A stretch of 39,371 nt of DNA, taken from the IMG/VR virus record IMGVR_UViG_3300042288_001356, positions 1 to 39,371 of that record. The stretch is one strand, 5' to 3'. The notes under the pieces are model-generated. The model was not told the DNA's origin. It ran no database searches and was given only the letters and a program-made list of their open reading frames with translations. Position 1 is the stretch's first letter; every line of letters begins with the position of its first letter. Positions 26,759 through 39,371 of the stretch are shown here, one piece after another. Source of the stretch: a virus. Both the position numbers and the translations under genes were made by a program.

Positions 26759-27232
26759 TCAGCCCGCCCGCTTGCGACCTGCTTTGCACAGACGCGCCAT
26801 GGCAAGATTCGTCAGCCCCACCAGATGCGAGGCCGTGATGCGGAAGGGGCCCACTTCCCCGTTCCCGAACACCACCAGCCCAACGGGGTCGATATCCACA
26901 CCCGCAAGCCGAGGGGAGAGCACTGGCATCCCGGTCATGGTGAAGCACGCGAGCGCCAAGGCAAGGTCACCCGGGGGCAGAACACGGTCGATGTGCACCG
27001 TGGCAACATACTCAAGCCACGCCAAGGCATCTTCAGGGGTCATCCCGGGCCTGCCGCGCCCGTACGTGAAGTCGGGCACGGAGCCCAAAGGCTGGCGCTG
27101 GAAGAACTCCTCGTAAGCCCTCGACACGGACGCAAACCAGTGGGTGAGCTTGATCTCCCGATGCTCAGACGCATCGGAGAGGTCAGGAGCACACCCAATG
27201 AGCAGGGAGAACGCGGGAGCGGCTCTAGTCAT
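26759..27232 (-). CDS. leftward hypothetical protein beside the control region, 157 aa
   Basis: The ATG at 27232 (minus strand) begins MTRAAPAFSLLIGCAP. The rest is mixed helical and beta with no HTH that I can see, and a basic C-terminus (MARLCKAGRKRAG). It is read away from the early rightward genes, which is the usual arrangement for a repressor or lysogeny gene, but the sequence does not identify one. There is no ribosome-binding site. TATGAT eight bases upstream would make the transcript leaderless. A longer upstream extension in the same frame lacks support. Confidence 0.6.
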   Translation of the reverse strand: MTRAAPAFSLLIGCAPDLSDASEHREIKLTHWFASVSRAYEEFFQRQPLGSVPDFTYGRGRPGMTPEDALAWLEYVATVHIDRVLPPGDLALALACFTMTGMPVLSPRLAGVDIDPVGLVVFGNGEVGPFRITASHLVGLTNLAMARLCKAGRKRAG

Positions 27233-27238
27233 GGACGG

Positions 27239-27244
27239 ATCATA
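27239..27244 (-). promoter_or_regulatory. possible -10 element of a leftward, leaderless promoter
   Basis: The minus strand reads TATGAT (5/6 match to TATAAT) ending seven bases before the ATG at 27232. Transcription would start at or next to the A of the start codon. No -35 match lies at the usual distance, and the 11-bp tandem repeat occupies that position instead. This suggests activator or operator control. Candidate only. Confidence 0.35.
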
Positions 27245-27271
27245 CCGCAAGTAAGCCGCAAGTAAGCCGCA
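27245..27271. repeat. 2.5 tandem copies of an 11-bp unit, candidate operator
   Basis: The unit CCGCAAGTAAG occurs at 27245-27255 and 27256-27266, followed by CCGCA at 27267-27271. Eleven base pairs is one DNA turn, so a protein could bind adjacent copies on the same face. The array directly upstream of the leftward -10 element is a natural operator position. Confidence 0.6.
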
Positions 27272-27316
27272 CGTCGCATGCCTGAGAGGCTGTGCGAGAA
27301 GCGGTGAAGGAACCCG

Positions 27317-27388
27317 GACAACGGCGGAAGTCAACCCCGACAAGGGCGGACAACGGCAGACAAAGACGGACAAGGACGTACAAAGCGC
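27317..27388. repeat. iteron-like array of 10-bp GACAA repeats
   Basis: Units GACAAGGGCG, GACAACGGCA, GACAAAGACG, GACAAGGACG and TACAAAGCGC lie head to tail from 27339 to 27388, with one more copy (GACAACGGCG) at 27317-27326. The first five bases hardly change. Period 10 is not a multiple of three and equals one helical turn, arguing for protein binding rather than coding. It could be an operator or a replication iteron cluster. Confidence 0.7.
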
Positions 27389-27598
27389 ACGGGCGTTCGG
27401 CATGCGACACCCCGCGTCTGAGTGCCTGTACGGGACGTGACACCCCCCCCCGGCAAAGGTACTCCCCTGACCCGGGGACGACCCGCAGCATTGCGTGTCT
27501 CGGATTTGCGAGTGTGTGCCGATTTTCCGCTTGGTTTCGGCCGGCGGCGAGCGTTTCAGGCGGCGATGGTCACCGGAATCTGTCGCGGGGGGTGCTGT

Positions 27599-27712
27599 AT
27601 GTGGGACGAGGACGACTCGGACGCACAGGAAGCCATGCGGCAGGAGGTTGTTCCCGGGGTATGGATACCTCGTGACTCCAGCGACGACGAACCAGAAGAG
27701 GAAGCGCCATGA
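27599..27712 (+). CDS. very acidic micro-protein, 37 aa
   Basis: The ATG at 27599 opens MWDEDDSDAQEAMRQ and ends in DSSDDEPEEEAP, so over a third of residues are Asp or Glu. Its stop overlaps the ATG of the phosphoesterase gene (27709), which supports translation as the first gene of the rightward operon. An upstream in-frame ATG (27566) would add 11 residues with three cysteines. Highly acidic small phage proteins sometimes mimic DNA or bind host enzymes. That is speculation here. Confidence 0.5.
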   Translation: MWDEDDSDAQEAMRQEVVPGVWIPRDSSDDEPEEEAP

Positions 27713-28575
27713 CGGCACCGCCCTTCACCGTGGAAGCCAAGAACCCGCAGGTCGTGACCGTCCGGTGCAAGCCGAGCGGCAAGGACTGGTGTCAATGGTT
27801 CCTGCTCCGAACCGACGCCCACCATGACAACCCGCACACGGACCAGGACCTCGAGCGCAAGCACCTACAGGAAGCAGTCGAACGGGGCGCTGGGGTGGTC
27901 TGTGCAGGCGACTTGCATTGTGCGATGCAGGGGAAGTGGGACAAAAGGGCTGACAAGTCATGCCTGAGGGAAGAACACCAATGCGGGGACTACCTGGACG
28001 CGCTCGTGCGAACCGCATCGGAGTTCTACGCGCCCTATGCAAAGAACTGGATCGTCATGGGGCGTGGGAACCACGAGTCGAGCATCAAGAACCGGCACGA
28101 GACGGACCTGACCGAGCGGACGATCGAGCGGATTCAGATGCTCACGGGCACGCGGATCCCGAGCGGCGGTTACACGGGCTGGGTGCGGATCCTGCTTGAG
28201 CGTGGGAACCACCGAGCGAGCGTGCGCCTTTGGTACTGCCACGGGTGGGGCGGCGGCGGCGCCGTGACGATGAACATGATCCAAGCGGCGAACCGGATGC
28301 CGATGATGGTGGACGGGGCGGACGTGATCTTCACCGGGCACGTGCATGAGGCGTGGGTGGCCGAGAAAGTGCGGGTCGGCCTGTCGGACATGGGAGAGAT
28401 TCGGCAGCGGACCCTGCACGTCTGCCAAGGGGCGACGTACAAGGACGAGTACGGCGACGGCCGCGGCGGGTGGCACGTAGAGACGGGCAAGCCCCCGAAG
28501 CCGGTGGGTGCGTGGTGGATGAAGGTTGAGCACATCGCGGGCGAGCCGGTCGTTTCGTTTGAGCGGGCGAAGTGA
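27709..28575 (+). CDS. calcineurin-like metallophosphoesterase, 288 aa
   Basis: All canonical motifs are visible: D36-x-H38 (TDAHHD), G67-D68 (AGDLHC), G120-N121-H122-E123 (GRGNHES), H178 (YCHGWGG) and G210-H211-x-H213 (FTGHVHEA). These bind two metal ions and hydrolyse phosphoester bonds. In phages, relatives act as DNA nucleases/phosphatases or RNA end-processing enzymes. It opens the early operon, coupled to the acidic micro-protein and upstream of the integrase. The substrate cannot be told from sequence. DNA metabolism or counter-defence (cyclic-nucleotide cleavage) are possibilities. Confidence 0.88.
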   Translation: MTAPPFTVEAKNPQVVTVRCKPSGKDWCQWFLLRTDAHHDNPHTDQDLERKHLQEAVERGAGVVCAGDLHCAMQGKWDKRADKSCLREEHQCGDYLDALVRTASEFYAPYAKNWIVMGRGNHESSIKNRHETDLTERTIERIQMLTGTRIPSGGYTGWVRILLERGNHRASVRLWYCHGWGGGGAVTMNMIQAANRMPMMVDGADVIFTGHVHEAWVAEKVRVGLSDMGEIRQRTLHVCQGATYKDEYGDGRGGWHVETGKPPKPVGAWWMKVEHIAGEPVVSFERAK

Positions 28576-28716
28576 ACAACCAGGTCTGACACCTCCCGGA
28601 GCAATCCGGCCGACGCCCTAGGCCACGCGCCCGGGGCGTTTCTCTTTGCGCTGAAGAATCCTTCACGCGGCCTCAACGAACGCCGCTGCATCGCCGCTTG
28701 CTCTGTCCGGGCAGCC
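28576..28716. terminator. intergenic gap with a weak terminator-like hairpin
   Basis: The gap between phosphoesterase and integrase carries ACGCCC near 28613-28618 pairing with GGGCGT about 16 bases on, followed directly by TTTCTCTTT. A GC stem plus a T-rich run is terminator-like, but the stem is short and the loop long. Read-through to the integrase, or a separate integrase promoter further on, are both possible. Confidence 0.3.
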
Positions 28717-30222
28717 GTGGAACCGCTTCGCGTCGAAACCTGCGCGTCCGATACCCGCGTGGAAGTCCGAATATACCGGGGAAACCACGAGGTAGCGTCA
28801 TTTTCCTTCGGGGATTCGGGCGGGGCGGGCATGATGGGGTCCATGCGACCCCAACAACCCGTTTCGTACCCGGCCCCGGCGCTGTCCATTGCGCAGGCAA
28901 ATCCGCTTTCGACCGCGCTTGCGAGCTGGCAAGCGGATATGGACCGCAGGGGCGTCGGCGAACGCGGCTCGGGGATGTTCGTCAAGCGGGTCCGCGTCGC
29001 GGCTGCGGCGTGCGGGTGGAGCTCGCCGGCGGATATGCGGTACGACCAGGCGGCCGAGTACCTCGCGGCGACGCGGAAGGAACGCGGCTGGGCCGGCAAC
29101 ACCACCGACGGCGTGGTCTCGGCGCTGCGGTGCTTCTCGAGGTTCTGCCACGCGGCGGGGCTGGTCGGCATGGACCCGTTTCTCCAGCTCAACCGATCGG
29201 GCGAGCAGGGCGGCCCGGGCGACCGGGCGCTCACCGTCGCGGAGGTGCGTTCCCTCATCACCGTGGCAGCGGCAACGACGGCGCGGGATCGGCGCTCAAA
29301 GTGCCCGCGTGGGCTGTACTACGGCTTCCTCGCGCTCACCGGGCTTCGCACGATCGAGGCCGAGAAATGCACATGGGGCGACGTGGACCTAGACGCGGAG
29401 ATCCCGTCGATCTGGTCCGATCCGTCGTGGTCGAAGAACGGCCAGCGGCAGCGTGTGTGCTTGTGCCCCGAGATTGTCGAGAAGCTCCGCGAGTGGCGGC
29501 GCTGCGTGCCGAACGGCCGGAAGGACCTTGTATTTCCGCAGGTCCCGAACCGGGCAACGTGGATCAAGGATCGTGTCGCGGCGGAGATCCCCGAGGTTGA
29601 CGCACGCGGGCGACGGGCCGGAATGCACGGGCTCCGCAAGGCGTTTGCGACGTGGCTGTACGAGACAGGCGCGAGTGATGCGACCATCTCGCGGCTGCTC
29701 CGGCACGGGGCGACGCTCGCACAGAAAACGTACGTGGACCCCGCCCCGACCTTGGAAGTCGAAGCCGTGAACAGGTTGCCGAAGATTTTTGACGGAGTGC
29801 AAGTGTCGGTGTACGCGGGACTTACGCCGACCATGCCGAAAAATGAGAACAAAGCCGCTTGCGTGAACGCGGAGAAGCCGATAAGGTCTATCAGCGACCC
29901 CGTTTCACGCACAGCTCATCCAGCCGAAAACAACCCTCCTGTTCGCCAAACGAATGGGGTCGCTTCCAGAGGTTCGCCTCCGGGGGGGTTGTTTTCGGTG
30001 GATGGGGAACCCGCCCGGGAAAGCTCGGCGGCTAGGCGGGAGTCGCGGTCAAGCGGCTCTCGGGATCAGAACAGGCCACGTTTGCAGCCTTCGAATGGGT
30101 ATTCACGGGCTGAAAATGACGCTGTTCTGATCTTCGCCGAAGCCGTCGCCCGACTGGGCCGGATGCTGGAGCGAAGGCATGGCACAGGATCAGACACCGG
30201 CGACGACGACCAAGGCGATTGA
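28717..30222 (+). CDS. int: tyrosine integrase with long C-terminal extension
   Basis: The catalytic set of tyrosine recombinases is complete: R211 (TGLRTIEA), K240 (SWSKNGQ), H304-x2-R307 (MHGLRKAF), H330 (LLRHGAT) and nucleophile Y339 (KTYVDP). Residues about 63-160 are the SAM-like core-binding domain. It integrates and excises the phage genome, so the phage is temperate. After residue 350 there is an atypical tail of 150 residues, disordered then helical (AVLIFAEAVARLGRMLERRH). Its DNA holds a long inverted repeat. The GTG at 28717 is the longest start. ATGs at 28831, 28834 and 28843 are alternatives. Confidence 0.92.
   Translation: MEPLRVETCASDTRVEVRIYRGNHEVASFSFGDSGGAGMMGSMRPQQPVSYPAPALSIAQANPLSTALASWQADMDRRGVGERGSGMFVKRVRVAAAACGWSSPADMRYDQAAEYLAATRKERGWAGNTTDGVVSALRCFSRFCHAAGLVGMDPFLQLNRSGEQGGPGDRALTVAEVRSLITVAAATTARDRRSKCPRGLYYGFLALTGLRTIEAEKCTWGDVDLDAEIPSIWSDPSWSKNGQRQRVCLCPEIVEKLREWRRCVPNGRKDLVFPQVPNRATWIKDRVAAEIPEVDARGRRAGMHGLRKAFATWLYETGASDATISRLLRHGATLAQKTYVDPAPTLEVEAVNRLPKIFDGVQVSVYAGLTPTMPKNENKAACVNAEKPIRSISDPVSRTAHPAENNPPVRQTNGVASRGSPPGGLFSVDGEPARESSAARRESRSSGSRDQNRPRLQPSNGYSRAENDAVLIFAEAVARLGRMLERRHGTGSDTGDDDQGD
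29924..29998. repeat. 16-bp inverted repeat with UUCG hairpin inside the integrase gene
   Basis: CCGAAAACAACCCTCC (29924-29939) pairs with GGGGGGTTGTTTTCGG (29983-29998), 15 of 16 positions. Inside the 43-nt loop lies GAGG-TTCG-CCTC, a stable UUCG tetraloop stem, just before the G/T-rich arm. The element is noticeably AT-richer than its surroundings. It could be an attP core or arm region, a regulatory structure, or the remains of a terminator. Confidence 0.65.
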
Positions 30223-30466
30223 GGACGGTGGACCGGCGTTTCCCCTTTCGTACCTTGCGGCCATGAACGGTGCCGTGGTGGACTTTGGAGCCACGGGCGG
30301 CATGGCCCTCCGCGACTACTTCGCGGCACAGGTGATGACGGGGCTGCTCGCCAACCCTGACGAAGTGTCGGCCGACTCTCCCGGCGGAGTTGCCGCCTAC
30401 CTCGCTCGTTGGTCCTACACGCTCGCCGACGCCATGCTGCTCGCCCGCAAAGGCGGTGTCGCGTGA
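30179..30466 (+). CDS. conserved small phage protein (GGPAFP/LRDYFA type), 95 aa
   Basis: The ATG at 30179 lies inside the integrase 3' end with GGAG/AAGG upstream. The sequence carries IEDGGPAFPLS, then GGMALRDYFAAQVMTGLLAN and a C-terminal ARWSYTLADAMLLAR. This combination is a widespread small phage protein family (a G-G-x-A-F-P start, then a GM-x-LRDYFA-x-x-M segment, then a helix with ADAML), found in many siphovirus early regions. Its function is not established. It overlaps the next gene by GTGA. Confidence 0.78.
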   Translation: MAQDQTPATTTKAIEDGGPAFPLSYLAAMNGAVVDFGATGGMALRDYFAAQVMTGLLANPDEVSADSPGGVAAYLARWSYTLADAMLLARKGGVA

Positions 30467-30954
30467 ACAACCACGTACACCCCGTCTTCGCCCAGATCCT
30501 GAACGAGCACGGCCCGAAGTCCGTCGCGGCTCACACGCTCGCGGCCGCGATCGACAACGCCGAGATCCACGCCGCCAAGCACGACGCCCACTTCGGCCCG
30601 GTGCTCCGCGAGGACGACGGCTCCGCGATCGACGCGGCGCTGCGTGGCCCGGACAAGCCCAAGCTCCGCGCGGAGATTGAGCGGCTTGAACGGCACCATC
30701 GCGGCATCGCAAAGCTCGACCTGCCCGACTCGCAATCCGGCGCGACGCTCCGGCAGATCGCGGCGAGCATCGCCAAGCTCAAGGCCCACCTCGCGGCCGC
30801 GATCGTCGCCGGGGCCCTGGTCTTCGCTGCCGCGTTCCCCGCCGGCTCGCCTTCGACCGACGCGACATTCCCGATCGCTCCGCACGAAGCGAAGCAGGCC
30901 CCTCTCACACCGAGCGTCATGGACGACGCTTGGGGGCTGACGTCCTGGTCCTGA
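30463..30954 (+). CDS. coiled-coil membrane protein, 163 aa
   Basis: The GTG at 30463 overlaps the previous stop, and CAAAGG precedes it. Residues 1-105 are largely helical (ERLERHHRGIAKLD, then LRQIAASIAKLKAHL). One hydrophobic helix follows at about 108-128 (AHLAAAIVAGALVFAAAFPA), then a polar tail. This predicts a cytoplasmic coiled coil anchored by one helix. The stop begins the intergenic hairpin region at 30955. No family is recognised. Confidence 0.7.
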   Translation: MNNHVHPVFAQILNEHGPKSVAAHTLAAAIDNAEIHAAKHDAHFGPVLREDDGSAIDAALRGPDKPKLRAEIERLERHHRGIAKLDLPDSQSGATLRQIAASIAKLKAHLAAAIVAGALVFAAAFPAGSPSTDATFPIAPHEAKQAPLTPSVMDDAWGLTSWS

Positions 30955-30964
30955 TCCCCCTCCA

Positions 30965-30993
30965 GCCGGGGCGCGGCTTGTGCTGCCCCCGGC
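30965..30993 (+). ncRNA. strong intergenic hairpin 1
   Basis: GCCGGGG (30965-30971) pairs with CCCCGGC (30987-30993), and GCGGC (73-77) with GCTGC (82-86), leaving a TTGT loop and one bulged C. There are twelve pairs, including one G-U. It is not followed by a T-run, so it is less likely a terminator than an mRNA stability or processing element. The TGATCCC-YCTCCAGCC leading into it recurs before hairpin 2. Confidence 0.6.
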
Positions 30994-31031
30994 AATTCGG
31001 CGACGGAAGGTAAGAACCGCCCGTCGCCTTT

Positions 31032-31271
31032 ATGAAAGCAACAGCCCCCACAACCGAGCCGACGGCGGATGAACTGCGGTGGATCCGCGAACGCGTGCGG
31101 TGCCAGCAGTCTCGGTACCGCCGGTGGATCCTCGAGACGTTCTGCCCGCGCGGTGGATGCGAGGGCGTGATGGAACCTGCGGAGCCCTACGCGGCCGAGC
31201 CGGATGTCGGGCTGAAGGCGTTCGCAGGCGGGCATCGTTGCACCGATTGCGGTTTCGAAGTTGAGGACTGA
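31032..31271 (+). CDS. small zinc-ribbon-like protein, 79 aa
   Basis: The ATG at 31032 has no obvious ribosome-binding site. After a charged helix (ELRWIRERVRCQQSRYRRWI) come CPRGGC (residues 38-43) and CTDC (70-73), forming a likely two-pair zinc ribbon, with an acidic end (GFEVED). It lies at the head of the recombination gene cluster and is followed by another small gene. It probably binds nucleic acid or a protein partner. Confidence 0.65.
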   Translation: MKATAPTTEPTADELRWIRERVRCQQSRYRRWILETFCPRGGCEGVMEPAEPYAAEPDVGLKAFAGGHRCTDCGFEVED

Positions 31272-35125: not shown

Positions 35126-35360
35126 GTCGCAAAGCCCCCGCAACGTCGAGAGGCGCGGCGGGGCGTTGAAAACTGGCGTTTCCTATGTGGAAAACCGCTG
35201 CATTCAAGGCGAGGTAAGCATGATTCTGGTAGACTGCACGCACTTCCCCATGCAACCTAATTCCGCCACAACGGGCCGCCCCTGTTCCGATGCCATGCTT
35301 TCTCGCATGGGGAAGTCTTCGGATGCGGGGGCGGCTCGCGTTGGTGGGAAAAGGATTGCC

Positions 35361-35912
35361 ATGAACCCTCGCAATATCAGCAACCGTGTTCGGTGGGAAG
35401 TCATCAAGCGGGACGGTTTCAAATGCTCGTACTGCGGAGCATCCGGAGTCCAGCTCGTCGTGGATCATGCTCGGAGCGTTGCGGACGGTGGCGGGAACCG
35501 TCTTGTCAATCTCCGCGCGGCCTGCCTGCCCTGCAACATCGGGAAAGGGCGGCAAAGCATCCCTTTCACGCCGGGTCCTCCGAAGCTGCTGAGCATGAAT
35601 CGTCGGGAGTACGTCGGTGCTGTTCGTACGTTCCGTGACGCTTTCTATGGGTGGCGAGAGATCACGCGGTCCAGGGTCGAGGAGTTGAAGTCTGCCGCTT
35701 ATGGGTGCCCGTGCGTCTGCCGCTCGTATGAACTGAACTGCGCCGAGGAAATCATCCAAGGCGAGTACGGTGGGATCAAGCTGCTGGAAACGTGGATCGG
35801 GTTGGCGGCAAAGGCAAGGGTCCCGGAACGTGACTGCTTTGTGTACGTGTGGCAGTGTTTCCGTGAGTACGAGATTCATATGGACGAAACGGGGGCGATT
35901 GATGGCCGGTGA
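35361..35912 (+). CDS. HNH endonuclease-like protein, 183 aa
   Basis: The HNH core lies near the N-terminus. C22-x2-C25 (FKCSYCGAS) and C55-x2-C58 form a zinc pair, and D35-H36 (VVDHARS), N50 and N59-x2-K62 (CNIGKGR) give the His-metal motif. A C-terminal extension of about 110 residues with three clustered cysteines (YGCPCVCRSYELNC) is unusual. The ATG at 35361 has AAGGA five bases away. Another start at 35220, also with GAGG, would give 230 residues. It could be a homing-type nuclease or an accessory packaging nuclease. Confidence 0.8.
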   Translation: MNPRNISNRVRWEVIKRDGFKCSYCGASGVQLVVDHARSVADGGGNRLVNLRAACLPCNIGKGRQSIPFTPGPPKLLSMNRREYVGAVRTFRDAFYGWREITRSRVEELKSAAYGCPCVCRSYELNCAEEIIQGEYGGIKLLETWIGLAAKARVPERDCFVYVWQCFREYEIHMDETGAIDGR

Positions 35913-36738
35913 TTGGACTCCACTTCGAGACAACATCCACGACGACCCGGACGTGTACGCGCTCGCGGCGGCGCTCAAGGTCAAGGACTCGGACCTGATC
36001 GTCGGGAAGCTGACGCGGTTCTGGGCGTGGGCATCGCAGCACACGCAGGACGGTCGGCTGCCCGGTGCGACGTTCGACCTGATCGACCGGGTGAGCCACC
36101 TCAAGGGCTTCGGGCGGGCGATGGTGTCGGTCGGCTGGCTGGTCGAAGTGAGCGGCGGGATGGAGGTTCCGAGGTTTGATCGGTGGATGTCGAGGGGGGC
36201 AAAGGCCCGGCTCGGCGAGACGAAGAGGAAGCAAATGCAGCGCGGATCTGTCCCGGAATCTTCCGGACAGAACCCGGAGTTTGTCCCGAAAATGTCCGGA
36301 CAAAAACGGGACTACAGGACAGGACAGGACAGGACAGAAGAGAACACCACTGCCCCTCCCGTTGTTTCTGCGCCCACTCCGCCGCCGAACCCGACGCCCC
36401 CGAGTGTGAGAGATGCGATCGGATCGGCTGGCCGATTCCTCGCAAACCGGCAGATCGCAACCGGGAACGCCCCCGAGGGGTTCGCGGCGTTCGTCAAGGC
36501 GTACCCGACCGGGCTCGCCCTGGACGACGACGGGATGCTCGCGATCTGGCGGGCGAAGGGGCTGGAGGAGATCCGCGACGAGGTGCTGGCCGGGCTTGCG
36601 CGGTGGAACGCGAGCGAGAAGTTCCAGACGGGGCACGCGCCGGCCGCGACGACGTTCCTGACCCGTGGCGACTGGGCGAAGGCCCCGCCGCCACCGAAAC
36701 CTGTGGCAGCGCCGAGATACGGCGGAGGTGCGTTTTGA
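35902..36738 (+). CDS. replication-initiator-like protein (lambda O type), 278 aa
   Basis: The ATG at 35902 overlaps the HNH gene end. Residues 1-100 form a helical domain (DPDVYALAAALKVKDSDLIV, then FWAWASQHTQDGRL and VSVGWLVEVSGGM) with features of winged-helix initiator N-termini. A low-complexity linker (about 110-165) contains the in-frame repeats described separately. The C-terminal domain (GFAAFVKAYPTGLALDDDGM, then GDWAKAP) resembles DnaD/DnaT-like helicase-loading ends. The order winged-helix, repeat-encoding linker, C-terminal domain parallels lambda O. The call is by architecture, not by a diagnostic motif. Confidence 0.65.
   Translation: MAGDWTPLRDNIHDDPDVYALAAALKVKDSDLIVGKLTRFWAWASQHTQDGRLPGATFDLIDRVSHLKGFGRAMVSVGWLVEVSGGMEVPRFDRWMSRGAKARLGETKRKQMQRGSVPESSGQNPEFVPKMSGQKRDYRTGQDRTEENTTAPPVVSAPTPPPNPTPPSVRDAIGSAGRFLANRQIATGNAPEGFAAFVKAYPTGLALDDDGMLAIWRAKGLEEIRDEVLAGLARWNASEKFQTGHAPAATTFLTRGDWAKAPPPPKPVAAPRYGGGAF
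36249..36336. repeat. GGACA/TGTCC repeat cluster, candidate replication origin
   Basis: Nine copies of GGACA or its complement TGTCC lie within 88 bases: TGTCC at 36249, 36282 and 36293; GGACA at 36265, 36298, 36317, 36322, 36327 and 36332. This includes the palindrome TGTCCGGACA (36293-36302) and four tandem AGGAC units (36316-36335). They occupy the low-complexity linker of the initiator-like gene, as lambda's ori iterons lie within gene O. Confidence 0.62.
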
Positions 36739-38017: not shown

Positions 38018-38268
38018 CACGTCGAAGGAACCCAAGATCGCCCAGCGTCGGGGAACGCATCGCGTGCCCGACCAAGGCGACGTACACCGAACTGCGAACG
38101 TCCAAACTCCCCGCGTGTGTTCAGGCACGCCAGCTCGCACGCGAGATCGACGCCGTGCTGACCGAGTACCGGGACCGCGAGGATCTGCTGCTGCAAGCGG
38201 CGCGCGAGAAGGACGAGGCCAAGCGGGGCGACATCTACGAGCAGCTTCTCGGGAGGCGGAAGCCATGA
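38014..38268 (+). CDS. small basic coiled-coil protein, 84 aa
   Basis: The ATG at 38014 overlaps the previous stop, with GGGAGTGAAGGC upstream. The N-terminus is very basic (MTRRRNPRSPSVGER). The remainder is charged helix (QLAREIDAVLTEYRDREDLL, then KDEAKRGDIYEQLLGRRKP). It is directly coupled to the sigma-like gene that follows (ATGA), so it could be a cofactor of transcription, but no motif shows this. Confidence 0.68.
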   Translation: MTRRRNPRSPSVGERIACPTKATYTELRTSKLPACVQARQLAREIDAVLTEYRDREDLLLQAAREKDEAKRGDIYEQLLGRRKP

Positions 38269-38924
38269 AGACCACCGGGAAGAAACAGCCGACCGCCAGG
38301 TTTATCGCCGAACTGCCGATCGTTCTGGCCGCGAGGCGGCGGGAGCCGGATGCCGTGCTCGCCCTGTGGCTTCAGTACGCGCCGCTGTGGTTCAAGCAGA
38401 TCCGGACGGTCACGAACTCCGAACCCGAGGAATACATGGGTGTCGCGTTCGAGAGCTTCCTGCGGGCCGTGGACAAGTACGACGAGACGATGAACGTGCA
38501 GTTCTCGTCCTACTGCTGCCGCGTGATTCGGAACACGCTGATGACCGAGCATGTACGCGGGCGAGCGCCGGTGGTGATCCCGAAGAACGTCTGGGACAAG
38601 AAGGGCAGCGAGCACACACGCGGCGCAATCAGCCGTGCGAGCCGATCACGCCCGATCGAGGCCGTGGACTGGAACGCCCGCGCCAAGGGCTCCGATCCGT
38701 CGGCGGCGATGATCCGCGCGGAGGAGATGGAGGAGGTCCAGGCCGCGATGCGGAAGATCGGGCTCACGACCGAGGTCGATACGCTGCTGGCGCTGATCGG
38801 CGGCGAGTCTCGCCGGGGTCTTGCAAAGGCGTCCGGGTGCTCGCATACCGCGGTGCGTTTCCGAGCCGGCAGAGCGAGGGACAGGATCATTCGTGAGATC
38901 ATGGCGGAAAGGCGGACGGCATGA
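38265..38924 (+). CDS. sigma-70-family-like factor, 219 aa
   Basis: The ATG at 38265 has GGGAGG upstream. Residues about 57-100 resemble sigma region 2 (AFESFLRAVDKYDETMNVQF then SSYCCRVIRNTLMTEHVRGR), which binds core RNA polymerase and the -10 element. Residues about 170-215 hold a region-4-like HTH (LAKASGCSHTAVRFRAGRAR) for -35 contact. The spacer between them (about 105-160) is basic and acidic and less conserved. A phage-encoded sigma factor would redirect host polymerase to middle or late promoters. It lies ahead of the small-gene run and packaging genes. Confidence 0.78.
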   Translation: MKTTGKKQPTARFIAELPIVLAARRREPDAVLALWLQYAPLWFKQIRTVTNSEPEEYMGVAFESFLRAVDKYDETMNVQFSSYCCRVIRNTLMTEHVRGRAPVVIPKNVWDKKGSEHTRGAISRASRSRPIEAVDWNARAKGSDPSAAMIRAEEMEEVQAAMRKIGLTTEVDTLLALIGGESRRGLAKASGCSHTAVRFRAGRARDRIIREIMAERRTA

Positions 38925-39175: not shown

Positions 39176-39371
39176 GCGACAGCGTGGACATGCTGAACCG
39201 GACCGAACTGGACAAGGCACGCTCCGAGATTGAGCGGTTGAAGGCCGACAACAAGGCACTCGCGGCGGAGGCGGACGGGTTGGAGGAAGTGGCGAAGGTG
39301 CTGGGCAGGTCGCTTCAAGACCAACTTCGTTCTGCCGACCTTCGGACAGAGATTGACGTAGCTGAGACCAC
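39172..39371 (+). CDS. small coiled-coil protein, N-terminal part (gene crosses the contig join)
   Basis: This is the first part of the gene that finishes at window position 149. The ATG overlaps the previous stop. The visible residues are strongly helical and charged (TELDKARSEIERLKADNKAL, then EAADGLEEVAKVLGRSLQDQ in pattern), predicting a coiled coil. Reading through the 25-bp terminal repeat into the window start keeps the frame open, which confirms that the two ends are contiguous in the real molecule. Total predicted length is 107 residues. Confidence 0.8.
   Translation, partial: MSDSVDMLNRTELDKARSEIERLKADNKALAAEADGLEEVAKVLGRSLQDQLRSADLRTEIDVAET
39347..39371. repeat. right copy of 25-bp terminal direct repeat
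   Basis: Identical to positions 1-25 (CAGAGATTGA at the start of both). It lies within a coding sequence, which argues that the contig break is arbitrary and not a cos end. Confidence 0.9.

Follow-up and report, generated by a model that had tools for sequence, protein, structure and literature searches.

Three consecutive hairpins in the C-terminal extension of a phage integrase gene, a candidate control element at the boundary with the next early gene

In phage lambda, attP and sib are both located behind int. Lambda int is retroregulated by RNase III at a hairpin (cited in PMC5371410). The mycobacteriophages of the BPs/Brujita type show integration-dependent immunity, in which integration trims the C-terminus of the repressor and removes a degradation tag (PMC4557955, PMC7194413); a C-terminus is also trimmed by integration in Weirdo19ES (PMC7194413). 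The 'suicidal' integrases of the archaeal SSV viruses have attP inside int, and integration splits and inactivates the gene (PMC8371274). Palindromic sequences fused in frame to ORFs have also been described, including the Rickettsia palindromic elements and bacterial MITEs (PMC2229807). The window analysed here is the whole 39,371-nucleotide IMG/VR record IMGVR_UViG_3300042288_001356. Its int gene shares some features, observed or hypothetical, with these systems, and carries three long hairpins inside the open frame behind the catalytic domain (Table 1).

The phage genome and its integrase

The first and last 25 bp of the window are identical (1-25 and 39347-39371) and form a 25-bp direct terminal repeat. 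A 107-codon gene spans the joined ends, with a purine-rich RBS-like site and coding-like codon usage on both sides. Together, the terminal identity and this 107-aa gene make it very probable that the record represents the whole genome of a temperate tailed phage in its free, circular form, with a length of 39,346 bp. Its genes include terminase, portal, protease and capsid, as well as int, RecE, RecT, a RuvC-like resolvase and rep. A host among the Planctomycetota is conceivable. Iteron-like repeats (GGACAGGACAGG..., TGTCCGGACA) were found inside the rep gene at 36226-36375, and by analogy with lambda O they are probably the origin. A phage protein encoded at 38064-38924 matched sigma-70 region 2 (PF04542, E 2.5e-5), and is possibly a late-gene sigma factor. 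Two strong G+C hairpins, the second followed by TTTAT, are located in the gap before the ORF at 31032 (30901-31050). Another long hairpin (35211-35350) lies upstream of an HNH endonuclease ORF (35361-35912); its perfect 12-bp inverted repeat (35242-35253/35305-35316) competes with a longer stem, which might represent a leader of alternative structures.

The real start of int is likely the ATG at 28843 (459 aa), and an inverted repeat (GGGGTC-CATGC-GACCCC, 28833-28856) lies across this codon. The Pfam domain PF00589 was matched at residues 172-341 (E 1.5e-12). The R...HxxR...H...Y pattern of the tyrosine recombinases was found in Int, including an HGLR motif; the residues R211, R307, H330 and Y339 are invariant in the alignment. 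In an AlphaFold2 model based on 18-19 aligned sequences, residues 1-56 are disordered, the core-binding domain begins at about residue 55, and the catalytic domain continues to about residue 358; no lambda-type arm-binding domain is present at the N-terminus. The best Foldseek matches of the model, with modest TM-scores, were XerA (5hxy, E 2.7e-9), the Brujita integrase (5vfz, E 9.6e-9) and an integron integrase. The model has the two-domain, arm-less architecture of the Brujita-like simple integrases. Int thus looks arm-less, with core-binding and catalytic domains only, similar to Xer, Brujita Int and IntI.

The integrase relatives found were only 20-34% identical and had no comparable extension. 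Among the distant relatives, most stop no more than a few residues from position 360, and one extends 34 residues further; the extension is therefore exceptional among the relatives found. An IS-associated Xer and an integrase of a different type were also considered, and were rejected as close kin. The preliminary description placed the end of the recombinase domain near residue 350, followed by an extension of 150 residues. The domain does end before the tail, but its fold ends nearer residue 361; the extension exists, with a length of about 140 residues, since the distant relatives stop near position 360. Its division into a disordered part and a final helix was reproduced by the AlphaFold2 model, with pLDDT values of about 31 in the former and about 81-87 in the latter. 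The terminal helix is amphipathic (P 0.03).

Table 1. Positions of the int features, the hairpins and the neighbouring regions in the window
Feature	Position	Strand	Details
Candidate alternative attP or control region	27121-27600		Longest non-coding-like run of the window
Candidate alternative attP region	28576-28842		Non-coding-like gap from the phosphoesterase gene to the int ATG
int ORF	28717-30222	+	501 aa; tyrosine recombinase without arm-binding domain
Catalytic domain	29230-29799	+	Residues ~172-361; R211, R307, H330, Y339
C-terminal extension	29800-30222	+	~140 aa; disordered 363-456, helix 464-489 (predicted)
HP1	29856-29915		Imperfect palindrome over full length; 22 matched positions, ~30-nt arms
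HP2	29915-30006		24-bp stem with one bulge; contains the 16-bp inverted repeat; z -5.5
Left arm of the 16-bp inverted repeat	29924-29939	+	
GAGG-UUCG-CCUC hairpin within HP2	29969-29980	+	G-C closing pair
Right arm of the 16-bp inverted repeat	29983-29998	-	15/16
HP3	30063-30132		Imperfect palindrome; the outer arms, 30064-30074/30122-30132, pair perfectly over 11 bp
Codons of the terminal amphipathic helix	30106-30183	+	Residues 464-489 (predicted)
Next gene	30179-30466	+	phrog_2201, E 1.3e-20; GGAG 6 nt before ATG

Hairpins and coding status of the extension

The 16-bp inverted repeat noted earlier in this DNA was recovered with 15 of 16 positions matched and a gap of 43 bp, and the UUCG-loop hairpin enclosed by it was also confirmed. 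The closing pair of this small hairpin is G-C, and therefore it is not of the extra-stable C(UUCG)G type. The repeat is the middle one of three consecutive long hairpins that fill 29856-30132. In both HP1 and HP3 the palindrome spans the whole hairpin and decays symmetrically, and the stems of HP3 are interrupted by internal loops.

The perfect 13-bp core alone could arise by chance in a window of 39 kb, as shuffled windows scored 12-15 versus 13. The 311 nt with all three hairpins gave folding z-scores of -6.6 on the plus strand and -7.9 on the minus strand against dinucleotide shuffles, and none of the 100 shuffles was as low. The two lowest summed z-scores among the 523 windows scanned also fall on this segment; across both strands, no other part of the window is as highly structured. 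When synonymous codons were permuted, with the protein and the codon set kept, the z-scores were -5.2 and -5.7 (0/150 on the sense strand), so the protein sequence does not account for the palindromes. Chance occurrence of one inverted repeat was likewise ruled out, since the three adjacent hairpins beat all of these controls. Against codons drawn from the G+C-rich usage of the phage itself, z was -1.6 on the sense strand and +1.2 on the other; this smaller or absent excess indicates that part of the signal is the unusual codons of the segment. If an RNA of the sense strand were functional, G-U pairs would be expected in excess over A-C mismatches in the stems. The two were about equal in the arms (7 versus 5), and HP1 folds better as antisense; the strand test speaks neither for nor against an RNA. 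No family in Rfam matched the hairpins, so a known RNA family was rejected as their identity.

The codon score was +0.14 at 29797-29853, and then fell to -0.19, -0.47 and -0.29 in HP1, HP2 and HP3, respectively; the 5th percentile of 40-codon stretches in the phage's own genes is +0.10. The coding-like codon usage of int stops at 29853, where the hairpins begin. The int frame nevertheless remains open through the whole extension to 30222 (0.8% chance in shuffles), and overlaps the first 14 codons of the gene at 30179, which is genuine and on the same strand as int. The tail segment looks like a spacer between int and the next gene that is read through by the int frame. The open frame through the hairpins and the terminal amphipathic helix suggest that the tail segment is probably translated.

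Control element, attachment site and other explanations

Our tentative preference is for a cis-acting nucleic-acid control element that occupies 29854-30135, where int meets the next early gene (30179), and most likely works at the RNA level in a manner similar to sib; this is possible rather than probable. The segment would be retained for its three hairpins, and the disordered protein tail would be a by-product of read-through from int. The gene order suggests an early transcript carrying int and the downstream genes, which would fold into the three hairpins. It might then be cut by an RNase III-type enzyme or opened to decay at the hairpins, and the presumed outcome of such processing would be a low yield of Int compared with the downstream proteins, a parallel to the effect of sib on lambda int. 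The control element is consistent with structure far beyond the dinucleotide shuffles and the synonymous permutations, with codon scores in all three hairpins below the 5th percentile of the phage genes, and with a position between int and a genuine gene of the same strand. The 24-bp stem of HP2 and the loop-broken stems of HP3 are in the range that RNase III can cut, and other hairpins of the early region (30901-31050 and 35211-35350) are also located at gene boundaries. However, the stems show no strand preference, and Rfam gave no match. Moreover, the open frame and the amphipathic helix suggest translation, which would melt RNA hairpins.

The tail might also contain attP, as the preliminary description proposed; we consider this possible but doubtful. 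Integration would then cut int between the catalytic domain and the terminal helix. It is similarly doubtful that the prophage Int would gain a host-encoded C-terminus, with the phage tail or helix tuning activity or stability. As the genome is a complete circle with int in its interior, attP should be intact in the record. The tail is one of few stretches near int that are non-coding-like, yet it is open, and it coincides with a local G+C dip (29751-29950 ranks 9th of 1567 200-bp windows); these two features make it a plausible attP site. Arm-less phage integrases with attP in an ORF are known (PMC7194413, PMC4557955), as are the SSV integrases with attP inside int (PMC8371274), and Int here looks arm-less.

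Several observations argue against attP in the tail. In the core site of an arm-less integrase, only a few bases separate two short inverted arms, whereas the repeat arms here are 43 bp apart, which is far too wide; arm sites of the lambda type are not expected for an Int without an arm-binding domain. Therefore, the repeat arms belong to neither type of site. No attB, lysogen junction, host sequence, or relative with the extension or the hairpins was found in the phages, plasmids, IMG/VR and genomes reached, and a scan of genome contigs and 398 Pseudomonadota genomes revealed nothing close to this int. A tRNA-derived attP was ruled out: there is no tRNA in the window, and no T-arm or tRNA 3' end in the tail or, by T-arm scan, in the gap upstream of int. 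Two other non-coding-like regions upstream (Table 1) are also candidates for attP. The longer one adjoins a leftward ORF (26759-27718), part of which is possibly a real gene, and is a candidate immunity or early promoter region. For each of the 8-mers GCGACCCC and AACAACCC, all three genomic copies are confined to HP1/HP2 and the start of int (28845-28860). They were dropped as Int sites, because they were noticed post hoc and the int start did not stand out in a gapped alignment scan.

RNA-level control of int and attP in the tail can, by analogy with lambda, coexist. In a more speculative combination, which we regard as quite unlikely, an arm-less Int would have attP in its own disordered tail, and integration would swap the terminal helix for host-encoded sequence and switch the activity or stability of Int, while the hairpins would control the free-phage form. 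This would be the BPs trick applied to int rather than to the repressor.

It is unlikely that small palindromic repeats (MITE-like) were inserted in frame and tolerated in the disordered tail without any phage function, although the full-length palindromes of HP1 and HP3 with their symmetric decay, the foreign codon usage and the disorder of the tail agree with such insertions, and in-frame cases in protein genes are documented (PMC2229807). The three hairpins are dissimilar, with no convincing mutual similarity, and no second copy was found in the window or in the phage and plasmid collections; copies of such an element would be expected in the host genome. Nine IMG/VR sequences matched the 16-mer arm, all without the partner arm, and a single IMG/VR sequence, in an unrelated tail gene, had both HP2 arms arranged as a hairpin. 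On these IMG/VR matches, a dispersed hairpin family was rejected.

A role of the hairpins in folded DNA, as cruciform or as single strand, is improbable, whether as a replication or packaging signal or as a folded recombination site of the IntI/CTX type. The segment does fold equally on both strands and as ssDNA (z -5.8), and the Int model resembles XerA, Brujita Int and the integron integrase. However, the boxes of integron attC sites (RYYYAAC...GTTRRRY) are absent, read by eye, from the hairpin ends, and the likely origin is elsewhere, at the iterons in rep. We know of no ssDNA stage for such a phage.

Comparison with known integration systems

If the hairpins control Int, they would represent a compact post-transcriptional control packed inside the ORF. 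If attP is in the tail, this would be a bacterial virus whose integrase is itself switched by integration; the cases described so far concern repressors (BPs, Weirdo19ES) or split the gene altogether (SSV). Once a host is known, both mechanisms could be tested on one segment of about 300 bp.

The locus resembles the int-attP-sib arrangement of lambda, in that strong hairpins come immediately after the catalytic domain of int, on the same strand as int. Unlike sib, the three hairpins are inside the open int frame, not past the stop; Int here lacks an arm-binding domain, and the processing and attP position known for lambda are putative here. As in BPs and Brujita, there is an arm-less simple tyrosine integrase and an ORF whose 3' end might be exchangeable by integration; whereas their attP is in the repressor gene, the candidate ORF here is int itself, and attP is only putative. 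The likeness to SSV, attP inside the integrase gene, is hypothetical here, and an exchange would affect only the disordered tail that follows the catalytic domain. Palindromes in an ORF that add unstructured residues are also typical of the Rickettsia palindromic elements; those here differ in being three dissimilar tandem palindromes, with no repeat family seen.
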